DNA from: a virus
Virus record (IMG/VR): IMGVR_UViG_3300021440_000120
Location: 1-24,311 of that record
Reading direction: 5' to 3' (one strand)
Length of the DNA stretch: 24,311 nucleotides
This document shows, one piece after another, positions 11,205-12,559 of this stretch. Numbering within the stretch: position 1 is the stretch's first letter; each line of letters begins with the position of its first letter. The position numbers and the translations under genes are program-made. A model generated the notes under the pieces. It made no database searches, was not told the DNA's origin, and was given only the letters and a program-made list of their open reading frames with translations.

Positions 11205-11282
11205 GCCCTCATTAGTCGAATAGGCCAAGACGCCCGGCTTTGAACCGGGAGATTTGAGGTTCGAATCCTCGATGGGGCGCCA
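11205..11282 (+). tRNA. tRNA-Gln (anticodon UUG), slightly irregular acceptor stem
   Basis: Cloverleaf read by hand. D stem GTC/GAC (from 11214; 11229-11231) encloses a loop with GG. The anticodon stem CCCGG/CCGGG (11233-11237, 11245-11249) encloses CTTTGAA with anticodon TTG at 11240-11242. The variable loop has five bases, the T arm is TGAGG-TTCGAAT-CCTCG (11255-11271), and there is an encoded 3' CCA (11280-11282). The acceptor stem pairs over seven positions only if one C among 11206-11208 is bulged. It decodes CAA (and possibly CAG) glutamine codons. Confidence 0.8.
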
Positions 11283-11304
11283 ATGCGTATCGCCAGTCAG
11301 ATGA

Positions 11305-11321
11305 TGAGGTTCGAAACCTCA
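11305..11321 (+). other. Isolated tRNA T-arm-like hairpin
   Basis: TGAGG-TTCGAAA-CCTCA forms a perfect 5-bp stem with a seven-base TTCGAAA loop, the shape of a tRNA T arm, 22 nt after the CCA of tRNA-Gln. No anticodon arm precedes it. It may be a tRNA relic or the 5' domain of the adjacent structured RNA. Confidence 0.5.
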
Positions 11322-11605
11322 CGCCGTGCCTGGGTTAGCCATACTCAGACCCACGGGAGAGTATACGGGACAACTACTGCTCTTGCTGGTGGTTGACAGC
11401 CTGGAAAGACAGGCTCCTAAATGAAAGAGCGCGGTCCAAGAAAAACCATATCGACTCCCGTGGCGGCTTCACGAATGACCGGACGTGCCACAATAGTGGA
11501 GTGACGATCGCTCTTTTTCTTTTAGGTGCTACCACGGTGGATGCGCAGGCTGATGCGCGACGAAACTGGCTAGTGGGGACGATGGGCCAGAACACTTCTA
11601 CTCAT

Positions 11606-11650
11606 TCCGGAGATCAGCGCCGGACACCTGACAGCCGGGAAAGACCGGCA
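11606..11650 (+). repeat. Structured RNA module, copy 1 (two adjacent hairpins)
   Basis: Hairpin TCCGG-AGATCAGCG-CCGGA (11606-11624) is followed by CACCT and hairpin GACA-GCCGG-GAAAGA-CCGGC-A (11630-11650). It matches the module at 11965-12009 with compensatory stem differences. Confidence 0.8.
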
Positions 11651-11964
11651 AACTCTCACGGGCTTGAGAGAAGGCGACGCTGGCCAGCCTGGACAAATAA
11701 GCGATGCCCGCCAAGCGTGAGCGTTATTGGACGGCGGTCCGGAGGGAAACGACAATCCCATGCACGCGCAGCAAGGCGCGAGTCGGTGAGTTGCCGACAC
11801 TTGTGTTGAAACATACATGTAGCGCCTATGCGAAAGCACGCGAAACCTCTACATGTGTCCTGGTTGATGTGCAGGCTGATGCACAATTCGTGTGGCGCAA
11901 CGTGACCGAGTAACCCTCAACCTCTGCGGGACAAAGGCCATGGATCGTGTAAGAGGCGCGCCAG

Positions 11965-12009
11965 CCCGGAGATCAGTACCGGGAACCTGACAGCCTGGAA
12001 AGACAGGCA
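11965..12009 (+). repeat. Structured RNA module, copy 2 (two adjacent hairpins)
   Basis: Hairpin CCCGG-AGATCAGTA-CCGGG (11965-11983) is followed by AACCT and hairpin GACA-GCCTG-GAAAGA-CAGGC-A (11989-12009). Compared with copy 1, the outer T-A pair of the first hairpin becomes C-G and a G-C pair in the second becomes T-A, with loops almost unchanged. Confidence 0.8.
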
Positions 12010-12103
12010 GCCTCTTCACAGATTGCCCGCCAAGGCTATGCGCGGCTGCGCATCCTCAAACCGGCGGGCCTCTTATCTTCGCGCAAATTCAACGGAGGAA
12101 GTT

Positions 12104-12559
12104 ATGGGGCTTTATGAGTGTGATGCGGAGGTTACGATTGCGCGCTTGCAAGCAACACAGGACGTGAACGCCGTTCCATCCAAAGATGCGCTTGCCGCTT
12201 GGGTAGCGCCTATGATCGAGGCAGCGCATACACAAGGCACGAAAGCCGACGGCGGTAAGCTCCGCATGGACTTGCTCCCGGTTGAAGCCCTGGAGTCTTT
12301 GGCGCGACGCCTGACGCTCGGCGCAGAGAAATACGGTCCTCGCAATTGGGAATCCGGTATTGAATATTCGCGCGTCTACGCCGCGTTGTTGCGGCACCTT
12401 TTGGCGTGGTGGTCCGGCGAGGACATCGATCCTGACCCTATCGCAAAAAACTCCCATCACCTGGAAGGCGTGCTCATCAACGCCGCGTTTCTCGTGACGT
12501 ATGTGAAACGAGGGATGATTGATTTCGACGACCGCCCTTCGAAGCACGCAGCACCGTAA
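12104..12559 (+). CDS. dATP/dGTP diphosphohydrolase-like protein (MazZ/MazG-related)
   Basis: A 151-residue protein from ATG 12104, with GGAGG five bases upstream. From residue 50 it follows the phage dATP/dGTP pyrophosphohydrolase N-terminal family: DGGKLRMDLLP, an ExxE pair at 61-64 (EALE) before a helix ending LGAEKYGPRNW, then RHLLAWWSGEDID (ExxD at 106-109) and HHLEGVLINAAFL. The acidic motifs match the metal site of all-alpha NTP pyrophosphatases, which cut dNTPs to dNMP and pyrophosphate. The family includes MazZ, which supplies dGMP for 2-aminoadenine (Z) synthesis in some phages, but many phages carry relatives without a Z genome. The gene could simply tune the nucleotide pool. The first 45 residues have no recognised match. 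Confidence 0.8.
   Translation: MGLYECDAEVTIARLQATQDVNAVPSKDALAAWVAPMIEAAHTQGTKADGGKLRMDLLPVEALESLARRLTLGAEKYGPRNWESGIEYSRVYAALLRHLLAWWSGEDIDPDPIAKNSHHLEGVLINAAFLVTYVKRGMIDFDDRPSKHAAP

Follow-up and report, generated by a model that had tools for sequence, protein, structure and literature searches.

Two copies of an RNA class absent from Rfam, probably related to STnc100, in an apparent array of structured RNA cassettes next to a phage tRNA-Gln

The non-coding gap of about 800 nt that follows the tRNA-Gln gene in the virus record IMGVR_UViG_3300021440_000120 (positions 1 to 24,311, all 24,311 nt of which were analysed and are called here the window) reads, by its sequence, as a series of structured RNA cassettes arrayed in tandem, and arrays of this kind are widespread among tailed phages. 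Two of its units belong to an RNA class that we name here CA RNA, which is absent from Rfam 15 and is probably a relative of the prophage small RNA STnc100. We are highly confident of this identity, i.e., of the array, the CA class and the STnc100 relationship taken together.

The array is headed by the tRNA-Gln gene (anticodon TTG, 11206–11282, plus strand), identified by ARAGORN and by the Rfam tRNA model (56.8 bits). Downstream, on the same strand, lies a dNTP-pyrophosphohydrolase gene of the dATP/dGTP diphosphohydrolase-like type (dGTP_diPhyd_N, 12104–12559; Pfam PF18909, E = 7.8e-28; PHROG 801), which, as stated in the earlier note, has its own ribosome site (GGAGGA upstream of the ATG at 12104). 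The claim that no believable protein is encoded between the two genes was also correct: none of the open reading frames of the gap matched PHROG, and the longest, of 138 aa, gave only a weak tblastn match, covering 25% of the query (E = 0.2), so that a protein-coding gap was rejected. The minimum free energy of 11283–12095 was −312.6 kcal/mol (z = −2.8, 20 shuffles), which is only modestly better than that of shuffled sequences; the real evidence of structure is the repeats. Recurring hairpin motifs indeed fill positions 11283–12080, as had been noticed. A 21-mer hairpin motif occurs four times (three of them good) and a 50-mer twice (84% identical), and there are one further duplicated 21-mer and one 11-mer. 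The modules are ordered B-C-A-B-C-A-B: a 50-nt block at 11607 and 11966 comprises hairpin A (CCGG-AGATCAGNN-CCGG) and hairpin B, hairpin C (GGTKGATGYGCAGGCTGATGC) is located at 11536 and 11862, and the TGCCCGCCAAG repeat at 11705 and 12024. The repeat motifs of the gap recur in hundreds of unrelated phages.

The earlier note interpreted this region as one large ornate RNA, possibly of the GOLLD or ROOL type, a divergent relative or a new class. The gap is indeed large, structured and non-coding, and it adjoins a phage tRNA; however, positions 11283–12080, approximately, are occupied by separate small units rather than by one giant RNA. The size, the hairpin density and the adjoining tRNA would suit a GOLLD- or ROOL-like molecule, and the array shares with these RNAs a phage location near tRNAs and loop–loop contacts as a design principle. 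Yet GOLLD, ROOL and HEARO had no match in the window, even when a search of 1 kb was relaxed to E ≤ 10, and the region divides into repeated units that are found singly elsewhere, which makes a single giant RNA highly improbable. All other Rfam families were rejected for the gap as well, as only the tRNA reached its gathering score in the window; relaxed limits added a sub-threshold abiF RNA match at 12026–12069 and two chance-looking matches. The suggestion of a new class came near the truth, in that two of the units are CA RNAs.

Hairpins C and A are two arms of one RNA, C being the P2 arm and A the P4 arm. CA RNA consists of a closing stem P1, a 2-nt linker, P2 with the loop AGGCUGAU, a payload, and P4 with the loop AGAUCAGNN, which directly abuts the 3' strand of the closing stem, P1'. 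Stem lengths are 7 bp in stem P1 (an eighth pair is weak), 4 bp in P2 and 5 bp in P4, and stem P1 pairing peaks (95%) only with a 5' linker of 2 nt and a 3' linker of 0 nt. Examples of stem P1 are TTGTGGTG...CACCACAA, GCAGATG...CATCTGC, ATTGGATG...CATCCAAT and GCGGTCTG...CAGACCGC. A covariance model, R1, built from 30 CA RNA loci with the window left out, recovered both window copies, and the next-best window match had E = 0.09. Copy 1 (11532–11631, plus strand; 57.8 bits, E = 1.3e-15) has stem P1 GGTG/CACC (11536–11539/11625–11628), the linker at 11540–11541, P2 at 11542–11558 (loop AGGCTGAT, 11547–11554), a payload at about 11559–11605 and P4 at 11606–11624 (loop AGATCAGCG, 11611–11619). In copy 2 (11858–11991, plus strand; 53.3 bits, E = 2.8e-14), stem P1 GGTT/AACC (11862–11865/11984–11987) and the linker at 11866–11867 are followed by P2 (TGTGC-AGGCTGAT-GCAC, 11868–11884), a payload at about 11885–11962 and P4 at 11965–11983 (loop AGATCAGTA, 11970–11978). 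Stem P1 has about 7 bp in the class and 4 bp in the window copies (copy 1 reaches 6 if a bulge is allowed), where hairpin B follows directly. We call these copies divergent class members because they match the model and keep the position and linkers of stem P1 despite its shortness. From copy 1 to copy 2, compensatory changes convert GGTG/CACC into GGTT/AACC in stem P1 and GCGC/GCGC into GTGC/GCAC in P2. Near relatives of the window phage were not found, and a search for close relatives of the gene at 12104 gave only two distant loci; thus, the covariation of the window itself comes from two copies.

The class as a whole provides a broader basis for the structure. In an alignment of 30 sequences, picked for a varied stem P1 with at least six paired positions, changes on both sides were seen at 8 of 8 pairs of stem P1. 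Covariation over the whole structure scored 0.370, compared with 0.105 in shuffled alignments; none of 500 shuffles reached it, and slid controls were all low. As this set was selected for stem P1, a fairer test is the count in 141 distinct units for which the two loops and the P2 and P4 hairpins were required, but stem P1 was not. In 119 of them, 7–8 of the 8 pairs of stem P1 are present, built from 48 different 5' strands, and all four Watson–Crick types occur at pairs 5 and 6. In units fetched with hairpin A, the pattern itself prescribes part of the P1' sequence, and a scan of bacterial genome contigs for hairpin A only tests hairpin C and the 5' strand of stem P1 independently. Hairpin C upstream and a stem P1 of at least six pairs accompanied about 70% of the 62 hits of that scan. 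They came mostly from Gamma- and Betaproteobacteria, with single hits, by MAG label, in Verrucomicrobiota, Phycisphaerales, Syntrophomonadaceae and Magnetococcales contigs. Since the scan patterns prescribe the loops and a large part of P2 and P4, covariation in these two arms is under-sampled.

In the class, the GCUGAU within the P2 loop and the AUCAGC within the P4 loop are perfect complements over 6 nt, and in both window copies the AGGCUGAU and AGAUCAGNN loops could pair over 5–6 nt, with one G-U in copy 2. From this complementarity we infer a 6-nt kissing loop between P2 and P4, the 5-nt core of the loop being too nearly invariant for covariation to prove the pairing; a protein site would also explain the nearly invariant complement.

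CA RNA was found in hundreds of phages and prophages. The C and A patterns each occur in at least 120 IMG/VR loci, which, for collection scans of this kind, is a lower bound on abundance, and about 145 loci combine the two on a single strand, with A 29–180 nt after C. One variant of CA RNA is present in 842 of 5,426 complete E. coli genomes (~15%), with no annotated feature under it among the matches listed. Phage P1 carries CA RNA, at about 69818–69917 of NC_005856, adjoining tRNA-Asn and tRNA-Thr; it is also present in mEp460, IME207 and phiEt88 (beside tRNA-Phe), and Klebsiella phage UPM2146 has one CA RNA among other structured units in a 3.3-kb region. That region (L342:1393-4729) is devoid of annotated genes; the CA RNA shares it with an STnc100 unit, a frame resembling a tmRNA tag and the other structured units, and two tRNAs follow. 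No significant match to the CA model was obtained in the CPS-53 and e14 prophage stretches of MG1655. A literature search with the motif sequences returned no relevant paper, the matches being to one short string in unrelated work. A covarying RNA class that is carried by textbook phage P1 and by about one-sixth of complete E. coli genomes has been missing from Rfam 15. Its arrays would explain long 'empty' stretches of phage genomes, and its occurrence in phage P1 makes it directly testable in laboratory E. coli.

The payload differs in nearly every unit: 139 payloads formed 115 clusters, and one payload was found inside four unrelated P1 stems. Moreover, two phage P1 isolates (NC_005856 and OP279344) differ downstream of tRNA-Thr by one 196-nt cassette, composed of a CA RNA and a spacer, and this difference is a clean presence/absence between repeated CTTACCGTTGTGATGAA ends; the CA unit of the extra cassette in OP279344 is located at 65635–65767. 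Together, the payload clusters, the payload shared by four stems and the cassette difference between isolates indicate that cassettes, payloads and closing stems move separately. In the annotation of the phage P1 record, the ban promoters, which C1 controls, precede the array, so that induction would be expected to switch on its expression. Two minus-strand genes annotated in the phage P1 reference, plp and upl, overlap the array and may be spurious. Neighbouring units at L339:2935-3230 in phage P1 share a stem sequence (CACAAC...GTTGTG...CACAAC...GTTGTG), in which each GTTGTG could pair upstream or downstream, forming a possible switch.

Relatedness to STnc100 (RF02076) is probable, judging from cross-detection by R1, a model built from CA RNAs only. 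R1 detects the STnc100-like unit of phage P1 (27.3 bits, E = 3.5e-6 in 46 kb) and the STnc100 unit of UPM2146 (15 bits, E = 0.0012 in 3.4 kb), both E-values being rough. The Rfam STnc100 model itself gives the UPM2146 unit 47 bits, equal to its gathering score, and the phage P1 unit a weaker 33.9 bits; it did not match CA RNAs, and had no match in the window at E ≤ 10. The two RNAs agree in the closing stem (GGUG...CACC), in the GAAU that follows the 5' strand of this stem, and in having a hairpin before a variable central part; comparison of the Rfam structure line with the CA alignment adds a 3' hairpin of 5 bp that directly adjoins the closing stem. Additionally, their units sit in the same arrays. 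In contrast to CA RNA, STnc100 has other arm loops, without the GCUGAU/AUCAGC pair. STnc100 adjoins the stx2 operon in Stx phages (PMC12370729), and it likely shares an ancestor with PasD, although the seeds and targets of the two differ (Zhu, Shabalina and Storz, PMC13192938). CA RNA would tie this lone prophage small RNA to a much larger family.

The arm dimensions of CA RNA match those of the acceptor, D and T arms of tRNA (RF00005), in a comparison that is geometric only: at the class level, a 7-bp closing stem, a 2-nt linker, a 4-bp arm with an 8-nt loop, and a 5-bp arm that joins the closing stem without a gap. Unlike tRNA, CA RNA lacks an anticodon arm, has a 9-nt second loop, and would make its loop–loop contact through the 6-nt complement; neither the tRNA model nor ARAGORN matched the window CA units, the match at 11206–11282 being the only one. 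With tmRNA, CA RNA shares tRNA-like ends and a large insert at the place of the anticodon arm, but no tag frame was recognised in the CA unit, and tag-bearing RNAs near the arrays are separate. The tRNA-like geometry, together with the placement in the tRNA clusters of phage P1, phiEt88 and UPM2146, could suggest that the units are decoys for host enzymes that act on tRNA, such as defence anticodon nucleases or RNase P. We consider this quite unlikely, as neither a CCA end nor a conserved discriminator follows P1', there is no anticodon-like loop, and the part at the anticodon position is the most variable one.

Tentatively, and with clearly less assurance than for the identity, we propose that CA RNA acts as a scaffold for a payload. 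The P2 and P4 arms would dock via GCUGAU–AUCAGC, where the D and T loops of tRNA meet, yielding a compact, nuclease-resistant, tRNA-shaped scaffold cut from a long phage transcript along with adjoining tRNAs. The scaffold would present the payload at the anticodon-arm position, and the payload would base-pair with host or phage RNAs, as is reported for STnc100 and PasD; that these two pair with different targets (PMC13192938) favours such a function. Recombination between repeated stems would gain, lose and refill cassettes. Several observations speak against the proposal: the loop complement is almost invariant, stem P1 is short in the window, P1' is followed by neither a CCA nor a conserved discriminator, no Rfam tRNA match covers the units, and a tRNA could be detected within 1 kb of only 15 of the 139 CA units (11%, compared with 4% background). 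Identity and function combined into one explanation, the best overall, appear evenly balanced between right and wrong, as a compromise between the two parts. A wider and more speculative possibility is that tailed phages carry arrays of tRNA scaffolds locked by kissing loops, in which the anticodon arm has given way to an exchangeable effector of 30–180 nt, so that the swapping of cassettes would provide every phage with an individual set of RNAs for regulation or anti-defence, STnc100 and PasD being the only examples noticed before. RNA engineers stabilise RNAs with tRNA scaffolds, and CA RNA suggests a natural counterpart.

The location of some units is also what would be expected of put-like anti-termination or anti-Rho elements, which would act in the nascent transcript and let polymerase read through long untranslated leaders and tRNA arrays. 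CA RNA and hairpin B are found in early leaders (mEp460, mEp390, Medea1) and in untranslated arrays, and a sequence resembling a sigma70 promoter (TTGACA...TACATT) immediately precedes CA RNA in the L229/L242 type of E. coli prophage. However, HK022, a phage with known put sites, lacks hairpin B, and its CA match (L132:33582-33691) is weak (16.4 bits, E = 0.016); phage Alexa has a terminator-like hairpin after two B hairpins; and endless payload variation would be unexpected for a polymerase-binding site. Anti-termination is thus unlikely, and the HK022 put elements were rejected as the identity of hairpin B.

Hairpin B, with the consensus TGACA-GCCNG-GAAAGA-CNGGC, is present in three window copies on the plus strand: copy 1 (TGACA-GCCTG-GAAAGA-CAGGC, 11394–11414; repeat family D1), copy 2 (11629–11649; families D1 and D2), directly 3' of CA RNA copy 1, and copy 3 (11988–12008; found as a repeat), directly 3' of CA RNA copy 2. 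The exact pattern occurs in at least 120 IMG/VR loci and the reversed control pattern in none of the same collection, and the free N...N positions are complementary in all listed matches bar one G-U. In loci fetched by CA RNA, 12 B hairpins lie within 1 kb of a CA RNA (257 kb) and none elsewhere (871 kb). In several loci hairpin B is 3–6 nt upstream of a tRNA. All 12 hairpins are on the strand of the CA RNA, and all 21 tRNAs within 1 kb of hairpin B are on its strand, which argues against a DNA-level feature, such as a packaging site or a recombination or integration hot spot. Cassettes do recombine, and some copies are near terminase genes (DIBBI, ESP2949-1), which would suit such a feature, but stem P1 pairing is kept while both strands change, linker lengths are fixed and genome positions vary. 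We therefore regard a DNA-level role as very improbable. Two further ideas about hairpin B were rejected: kissing of its loop GAAAGA with an upstream UCUUUC, which is depleted (2/125, compared with 12% background), and a single RNA family upstream of it, since the upstream sequences form many unrelated groups. The exact pattern of hairpin A directly followed by hairpin B, as seen in the window, had no match elsewhere. Large non-coding gaps of the crAss-like phage cr55_1 (L129), cyanophage MinM2 (L127) and Acinetobacter phage Alexa (L125) also contain hairpin B or a close variant of it, twice each in the latter two.

The remaining units of the array are all on the plus strand. A T-arm-like repeat (TGAGGTTCGAAACCTCA, 11305–11321; family D5), identical to the tRNA-Gln T-arm in 15 of 16 bases, is a probable remnant of a second tRNA or a tRNA-like unit. 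A long-stem unit, recognised by its fold, occupies 11416–11526 (stem CCTAAATGAAAGAGCG/CGCTCTTTTTCTTTTAGG); similar spacers, judged by eye, separate CA RNAs in the arrays of phage P1 and the Klebsiella phage. The internal-loop hairpin TGCCCGCCAAG...GGACGGCGG (11704–11737; family D6) has an 11-mer in common with the abiF-like element. The latter, a terminal hairpin (CCCGCCAAG...CTCAAACCGGCGGG, 12026–12069), resembles abiF RNA (RF03085) in its frame CCCGCCAAG...CUCAAA.CGGCGGG; its score of 26.6 bits (E = 0.027 for 1 kb) is below the gathering score of 37, and no abi gene was recognised among the window proteins scanned.

A separate observation concerns tmRNA-like loci, most of which, including phage P1, also carry CA RNA. 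In these, AAATGCAAACGA... is followed by 10-codon frames, as at L339:2359-2391 (phage P1 isolate OP279344), L342:2310 and L126:2642; further candidates are L146, L160, L177, L194, L200, L218, L226, L227, L232, L234, L304 and L359. The frames (ANDDLMMVAA*, ANDDLMLMAA*, ANDDVVLMAA*, ANDEQFLAVA*, ANDNTFLAVA* and ANEEMYLAVA*) resemble the E. coli tmRNA tag, ANDENYALAA. Three of the tag-frame loci score 22–26 bits with Rfam tmRNA_permuted (gathering score 47), and the loci could possibly encode unannotated phage tmRNAs.
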